From Anodontia alba (taxonomy: Eukaryota; Mollusca; Bivalvia; Lucinida; Lucinidae), in the NCBI GenBank assembly GCA_964016985.1, contig OZ024823.1:63880514-63944513 (forward strand): a DNA stretch of 64,000 bases, read 5' to 3'. The translations under genes and the position numbers were made by a program. The stretch's first letter is position 1. Every line of letters starts with the position of its first letter. Shown in pieces: positions 3,609-39,369 of this stretch. Below the pieces are notes generated by a model that was not told where the DNA came from, ran no database searches, and saw nothing but the letters and a program-made list of their open reading frames with translations.

Positions 3609-5620
3609 TATCGCACCTGCTTGTAGCAGGGTGCGATATAGGCGTCCGATTTTCCGTCCGTCCGTCAGTCCCTCCGTCCGTCTGTCCGTCTGTCAACATT
3701 TATGTCGACGTTCGACATTTATGTCAAAGTTAGTATTCTAATCAACTGCAAGACTAAACAACCATCAAACCCTGCATGAAACATCTCCCTGACCTCCTGA
3801 CTTTGCGACATAGGTGTCCGCTTTTCCGTATGTCTGTCTATTCGTCCGTCCGTCTGTCAACATTTATGTCGAAGTTCGACATTTATGTCAAAGTTAGTAT
3901 TTTAATCAACTACAAGACTAAACAACCATCAAACCTTGCATGAAACATCTCCCTGACCTCCTGACTGGGACATAGGTGCCCACTTTTCCATTCGTCTGTC
4001 TGTTCGTCTGTCCGTCTGTTAACAGTTCTGTTATGTCGAAGTTCGACATTTATGTCAAAGTTTGTATTCTAATCAACTACAAAACTAAACAACCATCAAA
4101 CCTTGTATGAAACATCTCCCTGACCTCCCGACTTTGAGACATAGGTGCCCGCTTTTCCATTCGTCTGTCCGTTCATCCGTCCGTCTGTCTGTTAACAGTT
4201 CTGTTATGTCGAAGTTCGACATTTACGTCGAAGTTAGTATTCTAATCAACTACAATTCTACAACAACCATCATACCTTGCATGACACATCTCCCTGACCT
4301 CCTGACTTGGCAGGTATGTTGACCCAGTGACCTTGACCTATATTTTGCGCTCCATTGACTTTGACACAATTTACGTTGACGTTCCAGATCTTCTCAACTA
4401 TAAGGCGTACAACTACCAAACCTTGCATAGTGCTTCTCCTAGATGTACTGACTTGGCAGGTACCTTGACCCGGTGACCTTGACCTATATTTTGCGCTCCA
4501 GTGACTTTGACATATTTTGCGTCGATGTTCGATATCTCCTCAACTATAAGGCCTACAACCATCAAACCTTGCAAAAGTGCTTCTTCTCAATGTACTGACT
4601 TGGCAGATACCTTGACCTGGTGACCTTGACCTATATTTTGGCTACAGTGACTTTGACATAATTTACGTCAATGTTCCAGATCTCCTCAAGTGTAAGACCT
4701 CTAGCCACCAAACCTTGCATAGTGCTTCTCCTAGATGTACTGACTCTGCAGGTATCTTGACCCGGTGACCTTGACCTATATTTTGCGCTTCAGTGCCTTT
4801 TACACATTTTACGTCAACGTTCAATATCTCCTCAACTGTAAGGCCTACAACCATCAAACCTTGCATAGTGCTTCTCCTCAATGTACGGACTCCGCAGGTA
4901 GCTTCACTGGGTGACCTTGACCTATATTTCGCGCTCCATTGTCTTTTACACCTTTTACCTCACCCTACCATATGTCCTCAACTGTAAGGCCTTCAACCAC
5001 CAAACCTTATATAGCACTTCTTCTCGATGTACTGACTTGGCAGGTACCTTGACCTGGTGACCTTGACCTATATTGTGCACTCCAGTGACTTTGACACATT
5101 TTATGTTGATGTTCGGTATCTCCTCAAATATAAGACCTACAACCACTATACCTTGCATAGTGCTTCACCTCATTGCACTGGCTTGGCAGGTACTTTGACC
5201 CAGTGACCTTGACCTATATTTGACACATTTTACGTTGATGTTTGATAACTCCTCAACTATAAGGCCTACAACCACCATACCTTGCATTGTGCTTTTCCTT
5301 GATGTACTGAATTAGCAGGTACCTTGACCCATGACCTTGACCTATATTTCATGCTCCAGTGACTTTTACACATTTTACGGATTATCATTGGGCTGTATGA
5401 TACGAAAAGTCAGTGCTGAAGATATAGCCATTAGAGGGAATGGGACTGGCCTGGAAAGTATGTGCCCCACTAGGCACTTTGTCTACATTTTTTTCAACCC
5501 AGTTTTCCAAGTAAGCACTGCTAAGAATGAAATAAACTTATTTAATAACCACGTTCTGATTGTGGCTCCTGTGACTTTTGCACCAGCAGGTGCGATGACG
5601 CCTTCCGCGGATTTCTTGTC
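3609..5620 (+). mobile_element. Helentron-like element, core I
   Basis: The head contains TCGCACCTGC (3611-3620), TTGTA and GCAGGGTGCGATA, then a GTCCGTCC microsatellite. The tail contains GCAGGTGCGA (5586-5595), an exact 10-bp inverted match to the head, and ends CTTGTC near 5620. The core has two kinds of unit: about 175-bp units (3690-4300) that re-include the CGTCCGTC block, and about 145-bp units (4300-5330) with TGACCTTGACCTATATTT. Short open frames here are by-products of the repeats. Confidence 0.75.
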
Positions 5621-5690: not shown

Positions 5691-5766
5691 AACGCGTTCT
5701 AAAAATATTGAGCTGGATCTATGGTGTTTTTTTATTGAAGAGTATTCTTGTATTCCATTTGTCTAG

Positions 5767-5846
5767 GGATTTGATGGTCATGGCAAACCACTCTTGACAT
5801 TGTACTTCCGAGTGCAGTTTTATGTTGATCAAGTTGTGTTGCTGAG
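5767..5846 (+). CDS. FRMD6-like: FRMD6/Willin-like FERM protein, exon a (F2 lobe start)
   Basis: An 80-nt exon with acceptor TTTGTCTAG and donor AG|GTAAGA. It reads GFDGHGKPLLTLYFRV and continues QFYVDQVVLLR, the FRVQ(F/Y)Y strand that opens the FERM F2 lobe. It ends in phase 2 (AG), and the first base of the next exon (A, 6678) completes an Arg codon, which ties the two together. The family is a cortical FERM scaffold linked to Hippo signalling in animals. The preceding F1-lobe exons were not found and are presumed upstream of the window. The FRMD6/Expanded assignment comes from recalled family sequence, not a search. Confidence 0.82.
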
Positions 5847-6677
5847 GTAAGACATATTGTGTGCTATTGTTTGTTTCAATATCCAACAAACAGTGAGTAT
5901 TATTACAGTTTTCATATTTCACTGCTTGTCTAACTTAGGATAACTTATTTAGGATAACTTCATTTTGTTATCAAATCTCTGTATAGTGGCTTACTTGAAT
6001 TTAAAATAAATGGACCAAGCACTTGAAGGACAAATGAGATGTGTGATGTTGATAGTGTGTGGGAAAACCAACATTTATGTACATGGTTCAGCCTAAGAGT
6101 AAGAGAATTTGTACAGTGAATGACATAGACCCTGCCAGACCTGTTAGTACAGATGTGTAGGGTTTTGCTGTTTGCATATGTGATCATGTTTATAATTTAA
6201 CCTTTCTCTTCAGTATATGACAAATTGATATTTTTGTTGTTTTTTTCCAGAAAACAGGGTTTGACATTTCTTGCAAAGTGTTTCCTATATCAAACTGTAT
6301 TTTATATTGAAGATTATTATTGTGTTCCATGGTTTGACATTGTATGCTATGGTGACAGTTTATGTAACCCTGTTTTCTGTTGAAAGAATGACTATATCAA
6401 AATGTCATCTGATATTTTTACTCAATGTGCTAAGCATTAAATGATTGATGGCAGCACTATGCAAACATGGATGATTATGAAAAGGAAGTTGTATATAAGT
6501 ACACAGCCATGTAAACTCTCAATTCCATCCATGTGACTGTATCATTGTTTAACACACCAAGATGATTGAAAAAACAATATTGTTTTCAAGAAGTAACAAC
6601 CATGTCTTGTTTCTTTGTGTCTAAAGATGAGGTGCTGTTTCACTGAAGTATTTTTAATCTGTTTTGCATGTTTGCAG
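5847..6677 (+). other. Intron between exons a and b (831 bp)
   Basis: A GT-AG intron holding a small fold-back at 6248-6379 and otherwise unassigned AT-rich sequence. No further exon is needed, because the flanking phases join. Confidence 0.75.
6248..6379. mobile_element. Small fold-back/MITE-like element
   Basis: CAGAAAACAGGGTT (6248-6261) is matched in inverted orientation by AACCCTGTTTTCTG (6366-6379), about 132 bp end to end. A related TTTGACATTTC motif recurs in the fold-back near 48200. No clear target duplication was found. Confidence 0.55.
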
Positions 6678-11101: not shown

Positions 11102-11376
11102 GGGGTGGTTGGGTGGTGGGAAGGTGTCGTGTATCTTGCGTTATCAGGGCTTACAGTTGGGCAAGGCCTGCTATCCTTGTAGCAGGTAAGGGTAGAGGGG
11201 GAATGTTTTTATTTCTTCTGTTTCTTCACTTTTATTCCTGTTCCTCTTTCTTCTCTATTCCTCTCTTTCATCTCTTCTACTATCTCTTCTATCTCTTTTC
11301 TCCCTTTCTCTGGGAGACGACACAAAATGACCCACAAGGGTTGACGTGTCGTTAAACCCCAACTCAATCAATCAAT
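11102..11376 (+). mobile_element. Short retroposon (SINE or 5'-truncated LINE) with CAAT tail
   Basis: A 275-bp insert flanked by an exact 13-bp duplication CATTGAAAGATGG (11089-11101 and 11377-11389). The 3' end reads GTGTCGTTAAACCCCAACTC followed by (AATC)n, a tail seen in molluscan short retroposons. A CT-rich tract occupies 11215-11310. No certain pol III boxes were found, so SINE versus truncated LINE stays open. Confidence 0.75.
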
Positions 11377-11902: not shown

Positions 11903-13040
11903 TTATGTCCCCGCCATTTTCAATGGGGGCGCATATAGTATCACCGCTGTCTGTACGCCCGTCCGTCCCGAACGTAACACAAATGGTTTCCGTGCGATAT
12001 TTTTTGAAAGGATTGGTGTATTGGATTGAAATTTTATACACAGATATATAATCATAAAATGTAGATGAAGTTCGATTTAGGGTAAAATCCACTAATTATT
12101 TTGGGAATTATGGCCCTTTTTAACTTTGAAAAATTTTCAACTTTGAAAAATGCTTTCCGTGCAATATCTTTTGAAAGGATTGGTGTATTGGATTGAAATT
12201 TTATACACAGGTATATAATCATAAAATGTAGGTCAAGTTCGATTTAGAGTAGAATCCACATATTATTTTGGGAGTTATGGCCTTTTTTCAACTTTGAAAA
12301 ATGGTTTCTGTTCCGTAACTTTTGAAAAGATTAGTGTATTGGATTCATATTTTAACATAATTATACAATATAGGTCAAGTTCGATTTAGGGTAAAATCCA
12401 CCAATTATTTTTGGAGTTACGGCCCTTTTTCAATGTTGAAAAATAGTTGAAAAATGGTTTCAGTTCGATATCTTTTGAATAGATTATTGTATTGGATTCA
12501 CCTTTGAAAAATGCTTTCCGTGCAATATCTTTTGAAAGGATTGGTGTATTGGATTCAAATTTTATACACAGGTATATTATCATAAAATGTAGGTCAAGCT
12601 CGATTTAGGGTAAAATCCACCAATTATTTTGGGAGTTACGGCCCTTTTTCAACTTCGGAAAATGGTTTTCGTTCCATAACTTTTGAAAAGATTAGTGAAT
12701 TGAATTCATATTTTATACACAAGCATATAATTATAAAATATAGGTCAAGTTTGATTTATGGTAAAATGCACCAATTATTTTTGGAGTTACGGCCCTTTTT
12801 CACCTTCAAAAGATGTTTTCCTTCCGATATTTTTTAAAAAAGATTGATTTGTGTATTGGATTCATATTTTATACATAGGTTTATAATCATAAAATATGGT
12901 CAAGTTCGATTTAGGGTAAAATCTGCCAATTATTATAAGAGTTATGGCCCTTTTTTCAACTTCAATTTTTGCAAAATGCCTGTGTGTGGGTGAGGATAAC
13001 CCTGGGCGGGGGCATCTGTGTCATACTGACACATTTCTAG
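11903..13040 (+). mobile_element. Helitron/Helentron-like element, core H, CTAG end
   Basis: The head at 11903 (TTATGTCCCCGCC, ATTTTCAAT, GGGGGCGCATA) leads into CGCCCGTCCGTCC. About seven units near 150 bp follow, with GGTGTATTGGATT and TTCGATTTAGGGTAAAATCC. The tail GGGCGGGGGCAT near 13010 mirrors the head TGTCCCCGCC. A TGTGTCATACTGACACA hairpin is followed by TTTCTAG at 13034-13040. CTAG after a hairpin is the canonical Helitron 3' end. Confidence 0.75.
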
Positions 13041-13584
13041 TTTCTAAAAGTAAAATGTGAACATCAAGAACCGATGCAATTATATCTACTTTAAGTCCAC
13101 AATTTCAAAAGGAAAGTCAGAGGCTTACAATTAACCTACAGGATAACCCAAAACAAATTAATCATTTAAGCTATTGTTTTAAATTGTAAAATTAGTTCTT
13201 ACCGAAATTAAGCACGTGTTTTTTCGCGAGATATTTGGCGAAAATATCTTAGCTGCGATTATGGTATTTTTTTTTTTTGTCATTTGCTGTTGCAAAATTT
13301 GAGTCCATGCCAATTTTGGTTATACAATGCAAATGCAAATGAAAACTTTAAGTCTGTCTTATTGCAGTTTAATGATATTGCACACATGCTAAAGGTACAA
13401 ACTGTTAGGATTTTAAAGACTATATGCATTCATTAAAGAATTAGAGATATGTTTGCATTACTTATTGAATGACCCGTGTAATACTGAGCTTCCCAACAAA
13501 GTTTTGCTGCCATCATATTTAATTTTAAGTAAACACATATTTGGACAGTCCAAACTGATTAAAACCACATGTGAATAAAATGTA
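13041..13584 (+). other. Unassigned intronic sequence
   Basis: AT-rich sequence with no recognised exon or repeat. Confidence 0.4.
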
Positions 13585-13747
13585 AGGCCAATTGACTTGA
13601 AACTTGGTAGGAAGCATCAGGGTGACTTGTAGATCAAACAAGCAAATTCCATAGGGAATTTATGTCCCCCGCCTTATTTTTATTTGAGCTGTTAAAAATG
13701 GGTAAGTTAACCAGAGGACCATTGGTGATGTATCACTTACCTAAGTA

Positions 13748-14340
13748 GTGATAAAAAATAATTTCAGGATTCTGAAAAAACCACATGCATATCTTCAGAC
13801 CATCCTTAAAGCACCTGTAAAGTTTCAAAAGGATCGGCTTAAAATTGTGGTAGGAGTTACGGGGACAAGGTACCTACTCCCTATACGCTTCTGTAGTATT
13901 AGAACTCAAAAAATGTCTAAGTTAAAAATGTGGAAAAAGTGATAAAGAATTATTTCAGGATTCTGAAAAAACCACATGCATATCTTCAGGCCATCCTAAA
14001 AGCCCATGTAAAGTTTCAAAAGGATCGGCAAAAAACTGTGGGAAGAGTTAAAGGGACAAGGTACCTACTCCCTATACACTTCTGTAATATTAGAACTCAA
14101 AAAATGTCTAAGTTAAAAATGTGGAAAAAGTGATAAAAAATTATTTCAGGATTCTGAAAAATCCACATGCATATCTTCAGGCCATCCTAAAAGCCTGTGT
14201 AAAGTTTCAAAAGGATTGGCCAAAAACTGTGGGAGGAGTTAAGGGGACGAGGTACCTACTCCCTATAGACTTCTGTAATATTAGAACTCAAAAAATGTCT
14301 AAGTTCAAAATGTGTAAAAAGTGATAAAAAATAATTTCAG
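13748..14340 (+). repeat. Three tandem units of about 191 bp
   Basis: Units start near 13748, 13939 and 14130. Each contains GATTCTGAAAAAACCACATG, AAAGTTTCAAAAGGAT, GGTACCTACTCCCTATA and AGAACTCAAAAAATGTCTAA. Each is open in one frame, but the frames are products of the repeat. Inverted copies occur in the right half of the element. Confidence 0.85.
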
Positions 14341-14685
14341 GATTCTGAAAAAACCACCTTTTGAAACTTTACATGGGCTTTTAGGATGGCCTGAAGATAT
14401 GCATGTGGATTTTTCAGAATCCTGAAATAATTTTTTATCACTTTTTCCGCATTTTTAAGTAGTTGTGGTCATGGTACCAAAGCCGTAATCCAAACTCATA
14501 AATCCATAAACGAATGATGAATCAGAATGTTCAGACCAACAGACATGGACCCCAGAACAAAGGGTGTAATCAGGCGTCCGCGGATAGTAAGCATTACTTG
14601 GTAAGCAAGCTTCGCCCACCATGCCCATAGGCTTGAACGAAGGAAATATCGGTAGAAGCGTATGTCCGGGATTTGGGAAGTCTAC

Positions 14686-16080
14686 TTATGGCGCGTCACT
14701 GGTAAAAACATCAGAAACAATTCTGGAAACTGCCACATTGTAGGGATTGACTAGATCATGATGTCTCCCATAGAACTTCTTAAGTGTTGCTACCAGTTTG
14801 GTTTTTTGATACCCCTGGCTCAACAACTTTGTAGTGAGCACTTTCCCACGCTCCATGAAATCCTGATAATTTGAACAGGTTCTGGCATAACGGATTAACT
14901 GTGAAATGTAAATGCCGTATGTTGGTGCAGAAGGGATATTACTGCTCAGGAATGGAAAGTTAACAATGAGAAAATTGAAGTCATCCCGTTTGTCGTAAAG
15001 CCTAGTAGTAAGCTTTCCATTGTCAATGTAGAGATAACAATCCAAGTATGAGGAGGAGGCTGCAGTCTCCGTTGTTTCCTTTATTTCAAGTTCACGTGGA
15101 TAGATGAATTCTAAATACTCTGCAAATTTTGTGTTTTTCAGAGACAATACATCATCTATATATCTGTAGGTGAAATTGAATAATTGTGCGAGGTGTTTCT
15201 TGCCTGCTTGGAGGAGACTTTGTACAAACTCCGCCTCATACGAGTATAAAAACAAGTCGGCAAGTAACGGTGCACAGTTAGTGCCCATCGGTATGCTGAT
15301 TGTTTGCTGAAATATCCGACCGCCGAACTCCGCAAAAATATTGTCGATTAGATATTCCAGTATCTTTATGACATCTGCATCTGAGTATTTTTATGGCGCA
15401 TCAGAGTGATCCCGAACGAAGTATGTGTCTTTGTAGCCATTGACAACAAACTGAAATCGACGGTTACCATTCTTGTGGAAGAAAAACTGGTTGATAATTG
15501 CCTTTAATTTAGATTTCAGTTTATCATGAGGAATAGTAGTGTAAAGAGTAGAGAAATCGAAAGATTTTATACTGTTGATTTAATGAAGAGATTGTGCCTT
15601 TAGGTTTTCTAAGAGCTCTTTGGAGTTTTTCAGGATCCACATCTGATTAACACCACTTCTGGCATATGCAGTGTCACAATACTTCTGAAGGCCTTCTTTA
15701 ACTGCGGTTAGTATTCGTGTTTGAATCTGAGAAAGAGGCTTGGTTGAGCACTTAGCTGAACCCGCAATATATCTCTGCTTGTAGGAATCCAGTACAGTTT
15801 GGGAAGGTCAATATCTTCCTCTGGGAGGGAAATTCCAAATGTCAGCATCACCGAATGGTGGTTTTGTAGAATTTCTTCCTTGGACATAGCAGTAAGATTA
15901 TATATAGGGTTTCCGGTCATGGTACTCATACCAAGCTCTTCCATTAAGCAGTTTATATAGTGTGTTTTGCAAACAAACACAATGTTGTTAGATGCCTTGT
16001 CGGCTGGAACAACGACAAACAGCTAACTCAGCAGCAACATCTTGATCATCAAACACTGATTCATGTTAGCAAGACATGGT
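14686..16080 (-). pseudogene. Decayed reverse transcriptase, Penelope-like (tentative)
   Basis: Reading the - strand: VVVPADKASNNIVFVCK (near 16010-15960); an N-terminal stretch to about 15708; FDFSTLYTTIPHDKL (RT motif A, near 15560); IPMGTNCAPLLADLFLYS (motif B', near 15290-15240); YRYIDDVLSL (motif C, YIDD, near 15165); then YDKRDDFNFLIVNFPF and KFYGRHHDLV; stop at 14686. At least two in-frame stops occur between motif A and motif B' flanks (near 15575 and 15392), and frames shift upstream, so it cannot yield a full protein. The MGTxxAP...ADLF pattern and VPADK start resemble Penelope-like RTs. No GIY-YIG endonuclease was seen. The last 200 codons are intact. LINE-like alternatives are less likely. 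Confidence 0.75.
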
Positions 16081-16329
16081 TCTGCTGAGTACTGAGACAC
16101 GTCTCTTTACCAAGGACATTACCGATTTAACCCATTAACTTAGACATTTTTTGAGTTCTAATATTACAGAAGTATATAGGGAGTAGGTACCTTGTCCCCT
16201 TAACTCCTCCCACAGTTTTTGGCCGATACTTTTGAAACTTTACATAGGCTTTTAGGATGGCCTGAAGATATGCATGTGGTTTTTCAGAATCCTGAAATAA
16301 TATTTTATCACTTTTTTCGCATTTTTAAC

Positions 16330-16800
16330 TTAGTCTTTGTTTATTATAGTGATTAATTTGATTTTTATGTTTTCGCTTTGATACATTGACTGAGTTGGGA
16401 GCCTTTATGCGAACCGAATTTTTATGTGTTTCTGTATTAAGAGTAGCATCGGGACCCAGGGTGAAGTTAGCTAGCTGTAAAAGTGCTTTAAACCCCCCGG
16501 TGGTTTGCTCTACTGACCGTTCTAAGGCGGTGGTCCCGGTGTTAGTCTTACTCTTTGTTGCTTTGTGGTTTATTCTACAAGGCGATTTGTTGTATGTCGT
16601 TCCGTGTGTCATTTTGTTCTTGTGTTTTTCAGTCCTTTTAGTATTGCGATTACCTCGCTTGGGGAAGAGAGAGCTAATCTTAGTGCTTTTTGTACGGTTT
16701 GTGCTTGTTTGGATTTGTCGGTTTCCTCTTCCTCTTGGGGTCTGGGAAGAGCTGCGGTTTGTGATTGTGGCACTCCCTGGACTTTTCTCTTACCTTTTTT
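16330..16800. repeat. Repeated block X, second copy near 27020
   Basis: GCTAGCTGTAAAAGTGCTTT through GTGGCACTCCCTGGACTTTT (about 16460-16800) recurs at 27025-27370 in the same orientation. On the - strand it lies upstream of the RT and reads a Lys/Arg-rich peptide (for example PDPKRKRKPTNPNKHK), so it may be the 5' region of the same retroelement. The + strand frame is hydrophobic and probably incidental. Confidence 0.65.
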
Positions 16801-17101
16801 TTTTTAGACATTTTTTGAGTTCTCATACTACAGAAGCGTATAGGGAGTAGGTACCTTGTCCCCGTAACTCCTACCACAGTTTTAAGCCATCCTTTTGAAA
16901 CTTTGCAGGTGCTTTAATGATGGTCTGAAGATATGCATGTGTTTTTTTTCAGAATCCTGAAATTATTTTTTATCACTGGTTTCCTGCTTCAATACTTAGG
17001 TAAGTGATACAGGACCAATGGTCCCCTGGTTAACTTACCCATTTTTAACAGCTCAAATAAAAATAAGGCGGGGGACATAAATTCCCTATGGAATTTGCTT
17101 G

Positions 17102-18240
17102 TTGCTTCTTCTCCTGAAATGTAAGGCCAATTGACTTGAAATTTGGTAGGTAGCATCAGGGTGATTTGTACATCAAAAATAGCTAAAATTGTTCCGTTCC
17201 AAAATCGAAGATGGCCACCAGGGCAGCCATCTTGAAAATCTATTTTTCACTTCTTCTTAACTGAAAAGCCTATTAATTTGAAACTTGGAAGGAAGCATTG
17301 GGGTAACTTGCAGATCAAAAATAGCTAAAATTGTTCTGATTAGATATCCAAGATGGCCACCATGGCAGCCATCTTTAAAATCTATTTTTAGCTTCTTCTC
17401 CTGAAATAAATGGCCAGTTGACTCAAAACTTGGTAGGAAGCATCAGGGTGTCTTGTAGATCAAAATTTAGCTAAAATCGTTCCGATCGGAAATCCAAGAT
17501 GGCCACCGGGGCCGCCACCTTGAAAATCTATTTTTTGCTTCTCCTCCTGAACAGGAAGGCCATTTGGCTTGAAACTTGGTAGAAAGCATCAGGGTGACTT
17601 GTAGAGCAAAAATAGTTAAAATTGTTCTGATTAGAAATCCAGGATGGCCTCCATGGCAGCCATCTTGAAAATCTATTTTTGCTTCTTCTCCTGAACCAAA
17701 TGGCCAATTGACTTGGAACTTGGTAGGAAGCATCAGGGTGACCTGTAGATCAAAAATAGCTAAAATCGTTCTGATCCTAAACCCAAGACTTGAAATCTAT
17801 TGTTTGCTTCTTCTCCTGAACCGAAAGGCCAAATGACTTGAAACTTGGTAGGAAGCATCAGAATGACTTGTACATCAAAAATAGCTTAAGTTGTTCTGAT
17901 TGGAAATCCAAGATTGCCGCCATGGCAGCCATCTTTAAAATTTATTTTTAGCTTCTTCTCCTGAAATGAAAGCCCAATTGACTTGAAACTTGGTAGGAAG
18001 CATCAGGATGACATTTAGATGAAAAATAGCTAAAATCATTTGATCGGAAATTCAAGATGGCCGCCGTTGCCGCCACCTTGAAAATCTAGTTTTTGCTTCT
18101 TCTCCTGAACCAACAGGCCAACTGACTTGAAACTTGGTAGAATTCATTGGGATGACTTGTAGAAAAAAAAATTACAAAAAATCATTCCAATCAGAAATCC
18201 AAGATGGCCGCCATGACCACCACCTTGAAAATCTATTTTT
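17102..18240 (+). repeat. Core C tandem array, headless
   Basis: About eight units near 145 bp with CCAATTGACTTGAAACTTGG, GGTAGGAAGCATCAGGGTGA and AAGATGGCCGCCATGGC-type palindromes. One partial unit lies on the other side of the inverted-terminus element (13585-13638). It runs directly into the next head at 18241. Confidence 0.85.
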
Positions 18241-19617
18241 AGCTCACCAGTGCTCATGGTGAGCTATTGTGGTCAGTCAATGTCCGTCATCCGTTGTCCG
18301 TCGTGCGGCGTCAACAATTGCTTTAAAAGCCTACTCCTCCTACACCCCTGGGCCAAGTGACTCGATACTTGGTAGGAAGCATTGGGGTAACTTGTAGATC
18401 AAAAATAGCTAAAATCATTCTGATCGGAAATCTAAGATGGCCGCCATACCATCTTGAAAATCTATTTTTCACTTCTTCTCCTGAACCGAAAGGCCAATTG
18501 ACTCCACGCTAGAAAGCATCGGGGTGACTTGTAGATCAAAATTAGCTAAAATCATGCCGATCGGAAATCCAAGATGGCTGCCTTGGCAGCCATCTTGAAA
18601 ATCTATTTTTCGCTTCCTCTCCTAAAGCCAAAAGCCAATTGACTCGAAACTTGTTCGAAGCATTGGGGTGACTTATAGATCAAATATAGCTAAAATTGTT
18701 CCAATCAGAAATCCAAGATGGCCGTCATAGCAGCCGTCTTGAAAATCTATTTTTCGCTTCTTCTCCTGAACCGAAAGGCCATTTGACTCCAAACTTGCTA
18801 GGAAGCATCGGGGTGACTTGTAGATCAAAAATAGCTAAAATCGTTCTGATCGGAAATCTAAGATGGCCGCCATGGCCACCATCTTGAAAATCTATTTTTC
18901 GCTTCTTCTCCTAAACCCAAAAGCCAACTGACTCCAAACTTGCTAGGCAGCATTGGGGTGATAGATCAAAAAAAGCTAAAATTGTACCGGTTGGAAATCA
19001 AAGATGGCCTCCATCTTGAAAATCTATTTTTCGCTTCTTCTGCTGAACAGAAAGGCTTATTGACTTCAAATTAGGTAGGAAGCATCGAGGTGACTTTTAG
19101 ATAAAAAATAGCTAACATCATGCTGATCGGAAATAATCCACGATGGCCGCCATGACAGCCATCTTGAAAATCTATTTTTCGCTTCTTCTCCTTAACCCAA
19201 AAGCCAATTGACTCCAAACTTGGTAGGAAGCATTGGGGTGACATATAGATTGAAAATAGCTAAAATCATCCCTATCGGAAATCCAAGATGGCCACCTTGG
19301 CAGACATCTTGAAAATCTATTTTTTGCATCTTCTTCTGAACTGAAAGGCCAATTGACTCGAAATTTGGTAGGAAGCATTGTGATGATTTGTAGATCAAAA
19401 ATAGCTAAAATTGTCTCGATCAGAAATCCAATATGGCTGCCTTGGCGGCCATCTTGAAAATCTATTTTTCGCTTCTTCTTCTAAACTGAAAAAGCCAATT
19501 GACTTGAAACTTGGTAGGAATCATCAGGTTGACTTATAGGTCAAAAATAGCTAAATTCTTTCTGATCCAAGGAAATCCAAGATGTCTGCCATGGCGGCCA
19601 TCTTGAAAATCTTTTTT
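18241..19617 (+). mobile_element. Helentron-like head with core C array
   Basis: The head (AGCTCACCAGTGCTCATGGT, then GAGCTATTGTGGTCAGTCAA) and a CCGTCGTGCGGCGTC block are followed by nine or so core C units. No tail precedes the next head at 19618, so the 3' end is missing or shared with the downstream element. Confidence 0.75.
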
Positions 19618-21513
19618 AGCTCACCTGAGCTCATGGTGAGCTATTGTGATCACTCACCGTCCGTCCTCGTCGTCATCGTCCGGATGTCCGTCCATCCACA
19701 ATCTTTAAACAACATCTCCTCCTAAACCACTGGTGGGAATTTGACCAAACTTCACAGGAATGATCCTTGGTTGGTCCTCTTTCAAAGTTGTTCAAATGGT
19801 TCCAGTTCATTCTATATCTAGGTCACAGGAGCTAAAAATAGGTTTTTTAATTAAAAACTTAAAAACTCTTCTTGTCCAAAACCACTGGACCGATTTCGAT
19901 ATAATTTTGCAAAAATGTTCCTTTGGTGATCCTCTACCAAGATTGTTCAAGCCATCTGGATTTGTCAAAAAACATGGCCGCTAGGGGGCAGGGCTTATTT
20001 TCCATCTATATCTATATAGAAAACTAAAAATCTTCTTGTCCGAAACCACTGGACCGAATTCAATATAATTTTGCAAAAATGTTCCTTTGGTGATCCTCTA
20101 CCAAGATTGTTCAAGCCATTTGGATTCGTCAAAAAACATGGCCGCCAGGGGGTGGGGCTTATTTTCCCTATATATCTGTATAGAAAACTTTAAAAATCTT
20201 CTTGTCAGAAACCATTGGACGGATTTCCATAATAATTTTGCAGAAATGTTCCTTTGGTGATCATCTACCAAGATTGTTCAGGCCATTTGGATTCGTCAAA
20301 AAACATAGCCGCCAGGTGGGGTCGGGGCTTATTTTCCCAATATATCTGTATAGAAAACTTTAAAAATCTTCTTGTTAGAAACCACTGGACCGATTTCAGT
20401 ATAATTTTGCAAAAATGTTCCTTTGGTGATCCTCTACCAAGATTGTTCAAGCTATTTGGATTCGTCAAAAAACATGGCAGCCAGTGGGTGGAGCTTATTT
20501 TCCCTATATAGCTACATAGAAAACTTAAAATATCTTCTTGTCAGAAACCACTGGACCGATTTCCATATAATTTTGCAGAAATGTTCCTTTGGTGATCCTC
20601 TACCAAGATTGTTCAGGCCATTTGGATTCGTCAAAAAACATAGCCGCCAGGGGGGGTCGGGGCTTATTTTCCCAATATATCTATATAGAAAAACTTGAAA
20701 AATCTTCTTGTCAGAAACCACTGGAACGATTGCAATATAATGTGGCAGAAATGTTCCTTTGGTGATCCTCTACCAAGATTGTTCAAGCCATCTGGATTCG
20801 TCAAAAAACATGGCCGCCAGGGGGCGGTGCTTATTTTCCCTATATATCTATATAGAAAAACTTGAAAAATCTTCTTGTCAGAAACCACTGGACCGATTTC
20901 ATTATAATTTGGCAAAAATGTTTCCTTGGTGACCCTCTACCAAGATTGTACAAGTAATCGTGATTTGTCAAAAAACATGGCCACCAGGGGGTGGAGCTTA
21001 TTTTCCCTATATATCTATATAGAAAACTTGAAAAAATCTTCTTGTCAGACAACACTGGACCGATTTCAATATACCTTGGCAGGAATGTTTCCTTGGTAAC
21101 CCTTTACCAAGATTGTTCAAGCCGTCATGATTTGTCAAAAAACATGGCTGGTAGGGGCGGGGCTTATTTTCCCTATATATATCTATATAGAAAACTTGAA
21201 AAAATCTTCTTGTCAGAAACCAATGAATGGATTTTGAATATAACTTGGCAGATATGTTTCCTTGGTGACCCTTTACCAAGATTGTTCAAGCTGTCATGAT
21301 TTGTCAAAAAACATGGCTGGTAGGGGGCGGGGCTTATTTTCCCCGTATATCTACATAGAAAACTTTAATGATCTTCTTGTCAGAAACCACTGGACTGATT
21401 TCAATTTAACATTGCAGAAATGTTTCTTATGTAACCCTCTATCAAGGTTATGCCAGCCGTCATGATTCATCAAAAAACAGGGCCACCAGGGGGCGGGGCT
21501 TATTTTCCCTATA

Positions 21514-26388: not shown

Positions 26389-27024
26389 GTATGTGGCATA
26401 AATATCTTTTTCTCAAGGTGAATCTCACTAGAATTGTCTTGTAATGGTTATTCTAATAAGTAACCACAGATATGTTTTTGTGTAAAATAAGACAATAATA
26501 TCATTTTTAAATATCCACAGATATATTAAATATACTATGAACAAATAAGCAACAATAACAACAACAACAACAATGATAATAATAGTAATAATAATAATAA
26601 TCCAAACTTGGACAAAATCACCAGATCAGTGACTTGATTAATTAATTAGGTAATTTCTAGAACATCTAAAGTCACCAGTAAAATGCTTTCGTATGTCAGA
26701 CTGTCCAAAGATGCAGGCAGGCATAGGTCTACACAGTTTTCATGTACATGTAAATACAGACCTGTAGTAATTTCAGACATTCCTTCTGAAATAAAAGAAT
26801 ACACATCAGCTGACCTTAACTACTACTGACCACAGGTTGATTGCTTTATAGATATAAATCTTATTTTTCACAGACAAGAGTTCACTGCTGGGATCAGATC
26901 AACATTTCCTGGTGATAAACAGTTAAAGCACTTAAGCCAGTTTTATGCATTACATAAGGACTCAGTGGAACTCACCAGTCTCTAATGGCCAGCCTTTATA
27001 GTCATGATATTATTTTGGTGTTGA
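26389..27024 (+). other. Intronic sequence with microsatellites
   Basis: Mostly unassigned. (AAC)n and (AAT)n-type microsatellites lie at 26550-26603. No exon was recognised. Confidence 0.5.
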
Positions 27025-27370
27025 AGTTGGCTAGCTGTAAAAGTGCTTTAAACCCCAGGTGGTTTACTCTGCTGACCGTTCTAAGGTGGTGGTCCCGGTG
27101 TTGGTCTTACTTATTGTTGCTTTGTGGTTTATTCTACGAGGTGATTTGTTTTATGTCTTAACCTTGTGTTATTTTGTTCTTGTGCTTTTCAGTCCTTTTA
27201 GTATTGCAATTACCTCGCTTGTGGAAGAGAGAGCTAATCTTAGTGCTTTTCATACATTTGTTCAATTTGTGCTTGTTTGGTTTTATCAGTTTCCTCTTCC
27301 TCTTGGTGTATGGAAAGGGCTGCAGTTTGTGATTGTGGCACTCCCTGGACTTTTCTCTTACCTTTTTTTT
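27025..27370. repeat. Second copy of block X
   Basis: Matches about 16460-16800 in the same orientation, including CTGACCGTTCTAAGG and GCACTCCCTGGACTTTTCTC. No flanking RT or inverted termini are seen here, so it is a solo fragment. Confidence 0.75.
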
Positions 27371-27989
27371 ATTTTAGTGGATTATCAAACAGGAATATAA
27401 GAATACATATTTAATCACAGGAGACTGGAGCCCGTCTAGGGTAAAGGCAATTCAAAATAGTTAAAAGTTTGCCAATCTGCCTCTTAGTTTGGTTGCCATG
27501 GCAATAGAAAACTCCCAAAGACTTATAATGGGAAAATGTTTAAATTGCATTTTCTCCTTAACCAGTGAAGTGATGTGAAACATATTTGGCAGTTATGATC
27601 ATTTTATGATTGTCTACCCAGTTTATGTGTTTTATGACCAGTGACCGTTTTGTTTAGTTGCCATGGCAAAATTTTAAAGTAGGAAAGTTTGTAAAGCACC
27701 AGCAAGGAGAAAAGACCCCGTTAAGCAGCAGCAGAAAAAAAAAAGACCATGTTAGCACCAGCAGGGAAAGAAGAACCTGTTGAAATTGTCTCTTGTCTGG
27801 CCTTGTAAAGAAACATAGGACGTGTAGCATAGGTGGGAGTGGCAACATGCAACTGGAATACCTCTTTCTCCCATTATTTCTTTACTTATTCAATGAAGAT
27901 GAGAGCTTGGCAAATATGGTAAAAAATAATAATAAAAACACATTCTTCTTCAAAACCAAGAACTGCTCAAATGATGATCCTTTCATTAG
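27371..27989 (+). other. Degenerate repeat-like intronic sequence
   Basis: 27530-27680 has the style of an old tandem-core unit (GTTGCCATGGCAA twice, near 27490 and 27658). The remainder is unassigned. Confidence 0.4.
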
Positions 27990-37123: not shown

Positions 37124-39369
37124 AGCTCACCTGAGCTATGCTCAGGATGAGCTATAGTGATCACTTTTTGTCTGTCGTCTGTCCATCCGTGCGTCCATCT
37201 GTTAACATTTTCTAAAGTCTTCTCCTCTGAAGTCGCTGAGCCAATTTTGCTCAAATTTCATATGGAGCCTCCTTAGGTTGGGGGAATCAAAGTGCTAAAA
37301 TGGTCGCGGACCATTGACCAAGATGGCCGCCATGCCTATATATGGTAAAAACCTTTAAAAATCTTCTTCTGCAGAACCGAGGATGCCTTGGGGCTGAATC
37401 TTTGCACAAATCATTGGGGACAGGAGGTCTACCAAAGTTGCTAAAATAATTGTTGTACATTGACATTTGACCTTTTTACCACAAGATCAAGTTTGCTTTC
37501 CTGTGCATTTGTACGGGCACCATACATTTGTATTGGAAAAATGTTGAGAATTTCAAATGACTTCTGCTCTGAAGCCTCTGGGCCAATGTTGCTCAAATTT
37601 GATGTGGAGCCTCCTTGGGGTAGGGGAATGAAAGATTGCTAAAATGGCCGCGGTCCATTGACCAAGGTGGCTGCCTGCCCATATATGTTAAAAACCTTTA
37701 AAAATCTTCTTCTCCAGAACAGAGGATGCATTGGGGCTGAATCTTTGCACAAATCATCAGGGACGGGAGGTCTACCAAAGTTGCTAAAATGATTGTCCTA
37801 CATTGACATTTGACTATTCTACGGGGAGGTCGTTTGCTTCCCTATGCATTGGTATAAGCCCTATACATTTGTATTGAAAAATGGTGATAATTTCAAATGA
37901 CTTCTCCTCTGATGGCTCTGGGCCAACGTTGCTCAAATTTCATATGGAGCCTCCTTGGGGAAGGGGAATGAAAGATTGCTAAAATGGTCATGGTCCATTG
38001 ACCAAGATGGCTGCCATGCCCATATATGGTAAAAACCTTTAAAAGTCTTCTTCTCCAGAACCAAATAAGCCCTGGGGCCTAATCTTTGCACAAATCATCG
38101 GGGACAGGAGATCTACCAAAATTGCTAAAGTGATGGTCCAACTTTGAAGTTTGACCTTTTTATGGCAAGATCAAATTTGCTTCTCCATGCATTTGTATGG
38201 GCCCTATACATTTATCTGGGAAAAATGTTGAGAATTCATATTTTGGACATCTCTATAATCCATTTGAATCGAAACTTGATGATGAGCATTAGGGCGCCTA
38301 GTAGACACAAATTAGCTAAATGTGTCGATAGAAAATCCAAGATGGCTGCCACAGCTGCCATCTTGTAAATCAATTTTCGACATCTCTTCCCAAACCTTCG
38401 GTCGCCTTGAGCCGAAACGCAGTTTAGCAACAGGATGATTACTGGACCAAAATGAGCTAAAACTTTGTCGATCAGAAATCCAAGATGGCCACAACGGTTC
38501 AGCTCCATTGAACAAGATGGCCACCAGAGCTAAAAATAGAAAATCTTCAAACAACATCTTGTCCTTGGCCAATGGCCTGATTTCAAAATATTTGCATAGA
38601 AGTGTTCCTCCAATGGCCCTCTACCAAACATTGCTAAAATGGTTCTGCTTGGCTGAACAGAATGGCAGCCAGAGCTAAAAATAGAAAAATCTTTGAAAGA
38701 CATCTCCTCCACAGTCAGTGTCCTGATTTCAAAGTAATTTCACAGAAATGTTCCTCTTAAGGCCCTTTACCAAAATTGCTAAAAAAGTTCTGCTCGGCTG
38801 AACAAAATGGCCGCCAGAGCTAAAAATAGAAAAAAAAAACCTTTAAACATCTTCTCGGCTGATTTCAAAATGATTTCACAGAGATGTTCCTCTTATCCTC
38901 CGTTACCAAAATTGCCAAAATGGTTCTGCTCTGCTGAACAAAATGGTCACCAGAGCTAAAAATAGTAAAACTTTTAAATGACATCTCTGTGGCCAGTGGC
39001 CGGATTTTGAAAATAATTTCACATCAATGTTCCTCTTATGCCCCCTTTGCCAAAATTGCTAAAATGGTTCTGCTCTGCTGAACAAAATGGTTGCCAGAGC
39101 TAAAAATAGAAAAAAAAACCTTAAAGGACAGGATAAGTAGATGAACCAAATGACTTCTGAAAAATATCTGAATTTTTTTTTTACTTATAGCGCTTTGAAA
39201 ATTTCAGCATTTTAACCTTGTAAGCAAAATATCTCAAAAACTGTTTAAGCCATTGCCTTGTTATAAGTTTCAATATTTGATAGTATTGGAAAAATGTTGC
39301 ATGCCATCTGCATATCTGCAGTGGCGGTTTCACTCAGGTGAGCGAGTTGTGGCCCAGGGGCCTCTTGTT
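37124..39369 (+). mobile_element. Chimeric Helentron-like element, cores B then E, complete ends
   Basis: The head is AGCTCACCTGAGC, TAT, GCTCAGGATGAGCT. Core B fills 37200-38240, a C-like junction 38240-38480, and core E 38490-39120. The tail has CATATCTGCAGTGGCGG, CTCAGGTGAGC and a GGCCCAGGGGCC hairpin with TCTTGTT. It has the same module order as 23746-26020. Confidence 0.83.

Follow-up and report, generated by a model that had tools for sequence, protein, structure and literature searches.

The unusual unit in this DNA consists, most likely, of two HINEs, ordinary copies of a non-autonomous Helentron, that lie head to head and one of which later took in two broken retroelements, rather than being a new mobile element. 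In our judgment it is probably a nested composite (two HINEs, a loss of the sequence at the centre and two retroelement insertions), and a structure that is an accident of nesting is, for that reason, not a new kind of mobile element. The unit lies in a window of 64,000 nucleotides from the bivalve Anodontia alba, "the window" meaning here the whole stretch analyzed, within a 1.86-Gb genome of 317 contigs; the counts of genomic copies given below refer to scored candidates, taken best first.

The outline is as a preliminary description had given it, with inverted ends built of 191-bp subrepeats and a decayed reverse transcriptase (RT) inside, and this much is confirmed. The end sequence CAAGCAAATTCCATAGGGAA occurs, each time with 0 mismatches, at 13639-13658 on the plus strand and, inverted, at 17082-17101 on the minus strand; at 3 mismatches or fewer the window holds no third match, and the chance level at that tolerance is a mean of 0.03 matches over 100 shuffles. 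The inverted ends as a whole (13637-13928 against 17103-16796) are 90.6% identical over 309 columns, with a core of 97% over 115 bp. In direct orientation, 3.2 copies of the 191-bp subrepeat stand at 13747-14357 (93%), and inverted pieces of it stand at 14357-14458, 16126-16342 and 16796-16977. These pieces, described earlier as "inverted on the right and inside," are indeed present, but the best reading makes them fragments of a single second copy that is oriented the other way; the RT and a repeat called block X do occupy the centre, but as what are best read as separate insertions into that second HINE copy (Table 1).

Table 1. Parts of the unit and its flanks, in positions of the window
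Feature	Position	Strand	Description
Left flank	13578..13638	+	Incomplete 145-bp satellite monomer, with ...GATCAAA at its end
Left HINE	13639..14357	-	3' terminus at 13639; 3' palindrome, subTIR, then 3.2 x 191-bp repeats
Spacer, 47 nt	14358..14404	.	Between the innermost palindrome arms; repeat sequence, plus orientation
Right HINE, piece 1	14358..14458	+	Repeat-unit position 106 through 191 to 16; TTAA end at 14455-14458
Penelope-like element, 5'-truncated	14459..16134	-	RT, no GIY-YIG left; usual 3' end CAACTAC at 14459
Right HINE, piece 2	16135..16333	+	Starts with TTAA 16135-16138, ends with TTAG 16330-16333
Block X and left neighbor	16334..16803	+	Dispersed retroelement-like repeat; constant 3' end TTACC(T)n, varying 5' starts
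Right HINE, piece 3	16804..17101	+	Last repeat from TTAG 16804-16807; 3' subTIR 17067-17076; palindrome; terminus GCTTG at 17101
Right flank	17102..19621	+	145-bp satellite arrays, beginning at TTGCTTCTTC of the monomer

The repeat family at the two ends

What, then, are these ends? The terminal sequence CAAGCAAATTCC is, in reverse complement, the 3' end of a HINE that is present in high copy number, and so the two outward-facing ends of the unit are not both ends of one normal HINE. In a search with the left end, the best 40 of 1905 candidates were scored, one of them being the window itself, and 38 of the 39 others were fetched with about 5.5 kb of sequence inward. The idea that the inverted termini are the two ends of a single element finds no support in these loci, where the other copies carry the end on one side only; two outward-facing 3' ends occur in 0 of the 38, and the end is present once per locus in all except L039 and L014.

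Read from 5' to 3', a copy consists of TTGTCCCCCGCC...GGAGGGACA, a GTGGTGCG-like microsatellite, 191-bp units (the first of them partial), AAGGCGGGGGAC, the palindrome AAATTCCCTATGGAATTT and GCTTG, and the ends of the family are TTGTCCCCCGCC at the 5' side and GGAATTTGCTTG at the 3' side. A 5' module different from the 3' end could be recognized in 33 of the 38 other copies, and these 33 span 523 to 5272 bp, the longest being interrupted copies. Near the 5' end, the subTIR GTCCCCCGCC is found by a strict pattern in 21 of these 33, the inverted repeat (IR) beside it, again by a strict pattern, in 22, and the microsatellite motif in 29; at the other end, the 3' subTIR GGCGGGGGAC, ending 25 nt from the 3' end, is exact in 29/38 and the 3' palindrome in 27/38. 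The palindrome folds with a 7-bp stem, the 60-nt fold around it being not unusual against shuffles (z -0.95), and a hairpin in the 5' module of one copy, L010, reaches z -2.69. Subterminal inverted repeats at both ends are therefore a property of the family, of which the window copies keep only the 3' one; both window HINEs are without the 5' module (IR and microsatellite), which in the left one has no match beyond short shared words. The family is a HINE, a non-autonomous Helentron with a 191-bp central repeat, and by analogy with what is published for Helentrons its members would be expected to move by a rolling circle.

The sites into which the family inserts agree with this anatomy. Of the 38 other copies, 36 have TT immediately behind their 3' end, the frequency of T at the first two flank positions being 0.95 and 0.97 against a background of 0.32, and in the window, TT or more stands next to each outer HINE 3' end on the proper strand. 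Joined flanks were compared for 34 pairs, against the sequence of the window and the fetched loci only, and 11 of them gave a match crossing the join. Four joins were read base by base: that of L010 is clean, that of L020 falls in a T-run, and in L017 and L041 there are gaps or differences where the flanks meet. For L010 the joined flanks align to window 11162-11251, and also to L015 and L023, without gaining or losing a base at the join, and these are paralogous empty sites for this insertion; the L032 join matches the same repeat and is perhaps not independent. Insertion into T-rich sequence without a change of the target site, as in HINEs, is what we find, the clean case being this one empty site. 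A target duplication, which the preliminary description had proposed to look for, is absent there.

Two loci depart from the single-end pattern. In L039, two HINE 3' ends follow each other in direct order (5753-5865 and 6169-6273, about 400 bp apart), which could mean that the first 3' end was read through or that the insertion occurred in tandem. L014 has a second, partial match to the HINE end in the same direction, and on its reverse strand, near 4278, a second HINE 5' start stands right behind ...GAACTTAGACATTTT of the 191-bp repeat, within the repeat array; here one HINE seems to be nested in another, near the repeat spot that the RT and block X hit in the window.

The palindrome and its satellite flanks

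How did two such copies come to stand head to head? The innermost arms of the palindrome, 14304-14357 and 14405-14458, are 47 nt apart, and a 121-bp query across this centre found a full-length match in the window only, among the best 40 of 446 candidates scored, the two halves being matched separately in the other rows of that search. On either side, the outer flank is the 145-bp satellite, and about 70 bp of the monomer are absent between them; in a satellite, a loss of 70 bp and a loss of 70 bp plus n monomers are indistinguishable.

We suppose that the HINEs arrived separately and that a central deletion then formed the palindrome. Two copies would have inserted, each on its own and in opposite orientation, at T-rich sites of one satellite array, with their 3' ends outward. 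The centre would then have been lost, taking with it both 5' modules and some 70 bp of satellite (or that much plus whole monomers), and the result would have been the imperfect palindrome with its 47-nt spacer.

Between the arms themselves, 281 aligned positions hold 9 differences (3.2%). For either arm there is a nearer relative at another locus (L041 at 1.8%, L010 at 2.0%), which speaks, weakly, against the arms being recent duplicates of each other. Private variants common to both arms are absent, save for two columns at the ragged edge of the alignment, and this is weak evidence, because none would be expected either if one arm had arisen by inverted copying of a consensus-like source.

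The chief rival to separate arrival makes the palindrome in one step: a strand switch or snap-back during HINE replication would yield an inverted dimer, which would insert as a fold-back unit and receive the retroelements later. We regard this as unlikely, and yet several features speak for it: the palindrome at the centre is in phase with the repeat and has a spacer of 47 nt, neither HINE has its 5' module, the 3' ends both point outward, and the divergence between the arms is lower than the mean over pairs of the 38 other copies (3.2% against 4.5%, with 14.4% of pairs closer still). Against it speak the flanks, which are not adjacent in the satellite monomer, some 70 bp being absent, while the clean empty site of the family has no such loss. 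When the window flanks are joined and compared with the window and the fetched loci, no clean empty site appears, only one match of 80.5% that extends 12 bases over the join; a hit at 38169, obtained with a pattern for flanks that adjoin directly, was set aside, as it sits in another repeat and not in the 145-bp satellite. Against a single step stand also the 16-bp deletion beside the repeat array, which the left arm has and the right arm does not, and the absence of any such dimer from the 38 other loci.

The particular route by which such a dimer might form, an inverted template switch in rolling-circle replication giving a head-to-head HINE without 5' ends and with two 3' ends, still capable of inserting, strikes us as improbable. 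To our knowledge, Helentron replication has not been reported to give a dimer of this kind as a by-product, and our search of the literature found no report of a head-to-head Helitron dimer or of a nested Helentron/Penelope unit like the one in the window.

Could the palindrome simply be an error of assembly, with two loci joined in inverted orientation? The locus is rich in repeats, the junction lies inside them, and the full-length match to it is found only here among the scored candidates, all of which speaks for a misjoin. The same satellite, however, stands at both outer flanks, and the nested inserts keep their flanking tetranucleotides and the phase of the repeat, which speaks for the right half. 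An error of this kind is, we think, very improbable.

The retroelements within the unit

In unit positions, piece 1 of the right HINE ends at 16, piece 2 runs from 13 (TTAA) to 21, and piece 3 begins at 18 (TTAG); for piece 2, the aligner extended a few chance bases beyond the border. TTAA stands on both sides of the RT element (14455-14458 and 16135-16138), and the pieces join in phase across it; TTAG stands likewise on both sides of the block X insert (16330-16333 and 16804-16807), again with the repeat phase kept. These border repeats are, however, only 4 bp long, in AT-rich DNA. To continue the history that we prefer, the right HINE would have received insertions in successive repeat units, one of a 5'-truncated Penelope-like element, for which target-primed reverse transcription is the probable route, and one of block X, a LINE-like repeat likewise truncated at its 5' end.

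That the RT is Penelope-like, as had been claimed, is supported by its identity to RT proteins and by the domains of its relatives. It lies on the minus strand and is frameshifted, and its match to Pfam RVT_1 is weak (E 6e-4, below the curated cut-off), but along part of the element the identity to predicted RT proteins is up to 94%, and of 10 relatives scanned, 4 have a GIY-YIG domain before the RT. By sequence resemblance the element would be Penelope-like, with a PLE-type RT. Penelope-like elements with an N-terminal GIY-YIG are, we take it, of the Naiad/Chlamys type. The window RT resembles that type through those four relatives; unlike it, the window copy is 5'-truncated, frameshifted and lacks GIY-YIG, being cut off before the place where the relatives have the domain.

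In a search for DNA copies of the RT, the best 40 of 3539 candidates were scored, the window among them. Every one of the 40 extends to the query's 3' end, and the starts of 10 lie 107-306 nt inside the query. The 3' end CAACTAC is exact in 19 of 20 other copies, and the window copy ends likewise; a further copy, L049, is without it. What L049 retains of the GIY-YIG domain is, by visual comparison with P0030, only its presumed end. Upstream of the RT in L049, a weak direct family of 44 nt and an inverted pair of 76 nt were seen, one of each, which do not look like RT-flanking repeats. No hammerhead ribozyme was matched (Rfam, E<=1) in window 12000-19000 or in L049, a result that, like that for the RT-flanking repeats (pLTRs), says little, because both copies are 5'-truncated. 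A hammerhead within the 191-bp repeats was rejected too, with no Rfam match there; hits to mir-5365 and RAGATH-32 in these repeats fall below the gathering scores, as do mir-like hits in L049. The RT piece in the window is a truncated copy and not a complete Penelope-like element.

The preliminary description had raised the prospect of a new retroelement structure, and one may ask whether the subrepeat-built inverted ends could be the own terminal repeats of a new Penelope-like retroelement. Such elements can carry repeats flanking the RT, and here 191-bp pieces do flank it in the same orientation. Yet in 20 other RT copies the bases read beyond the 3' terminus (about 60-80 bp, on the 3' side only) contain no significant match to the HINE or its 191-bp repeat, the best having E 0.17, and the repeat phase continues across the RT, so that we rejected the repeats as a part of the RT element. 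Whether RT and ends occur together elsewhere had been set beforehand as the check, and the answer is that the RT lies between the HINE ends in 0 of the 38 other loci with the same end, which refutes the idea within this sample and leaves it, to our minds, scarcely credible. One of those loci, L036, has an RT fragment (71% identical) outside its HINE.

Block X could be thought the 5' part of the RT element, a reading we discarded, as it is a dispersed repeat of its own with a constant 3' end. A second, shorter copy in the window (27022-27373, 89%) has the same 3' end and another start point. In a genome search, with the best 40 of 2862 candidates scored, each of the 40 has a main match that stops at position 457-463 in a query of 463, the 41st row being a 56-base piece; TTACC(T)n stands at the 3' end in the window and in the copies read, and the 5' starts differ among the few copies compared in full. 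Its sequence suggests a 5'-truncated LINE-like repeat, where "LINE-like" is something we infer, because the coding part was not found. At about 6030 in L027, a block-X copy and the 3' end of a HINE meet exactly at TTTATTATAG, and the 5' flank of that HINE is not the expected upstream sequence. Behind the block-X copy of L027 and L029, about 870 bases into the stretch read, there is a transposase fragment, read by eye, which we take to be mariner-like. In L050, the 3' end of the block-X repeat lies inverted about 30 bp beyond the 3' end of an RT copy.

Relation to known elements

The anatomy of HINEs is set out for mites and Drosophila, with subTIRs, IR, microsatellite, central repeats and 3' palindrome, in PMC4067079, and for the oyster, in the form of Cg_HINE and Pearl-type non-autonomous Helentrons, in PMC7492417. 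The present family is like these elements in having a 5' subTIR with a nearby complementary IR, a microsatellite, a variable number of satellite-like central repeats, a 3' subTIR, a 3' palindrome and T-rich insertion without target change. It differs from the mite HINEs of PMC4067079 in the position of the 3' subTIR, which is 25 nt from the 3' end here as against about 38-60 bp. It differs from known HINEs in its own sequence and its 191-bp repeat, having been assigned by its anatomy against published descriptions, so that it may already be named; and the window differs from them in presenting two 5'-less copies head to head.

The preliminary description had also suggested a fold-back transposon that trapped an RT, and half of this stands: a subrepeat-built element did trap the RT, but it is not of a fold-back family, 33 of 38 copies being asymmetric. 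A cut-and-paste transposon of the Galileo, FB or Tetris type with long subrepeat TIRs, which the long inverted ends with internal repeats recall in superficial form (PMC3573991 and PMC4079207), is highly improbable, since 0 of 38 loci have the end on both sides or a second inverted copy, 33 have a recognizably different 5' module in place of a symmetric subrepeat TIR, and the clean empty site has no target duplication.

The tempting lead of a new retroelement is thereby closed, and the lesson is that nested insertion into a subrepeat-carrying Helentron can mimic a fold-back retroelement. There are two by-products: a HINE family whose bounds are well defined, for which one clean empty site is at hand, and the 3' end of a Penelope-like family that has many copies in this genome. 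Among the scored RT copies of the latter, four out of 40 (C13:33351, C8:184571, C14:87817499 and C5:126671226) lie about 0.03-0.31 Mb from a contig end, and the Penelope-like element might have a subtelomeric bias.
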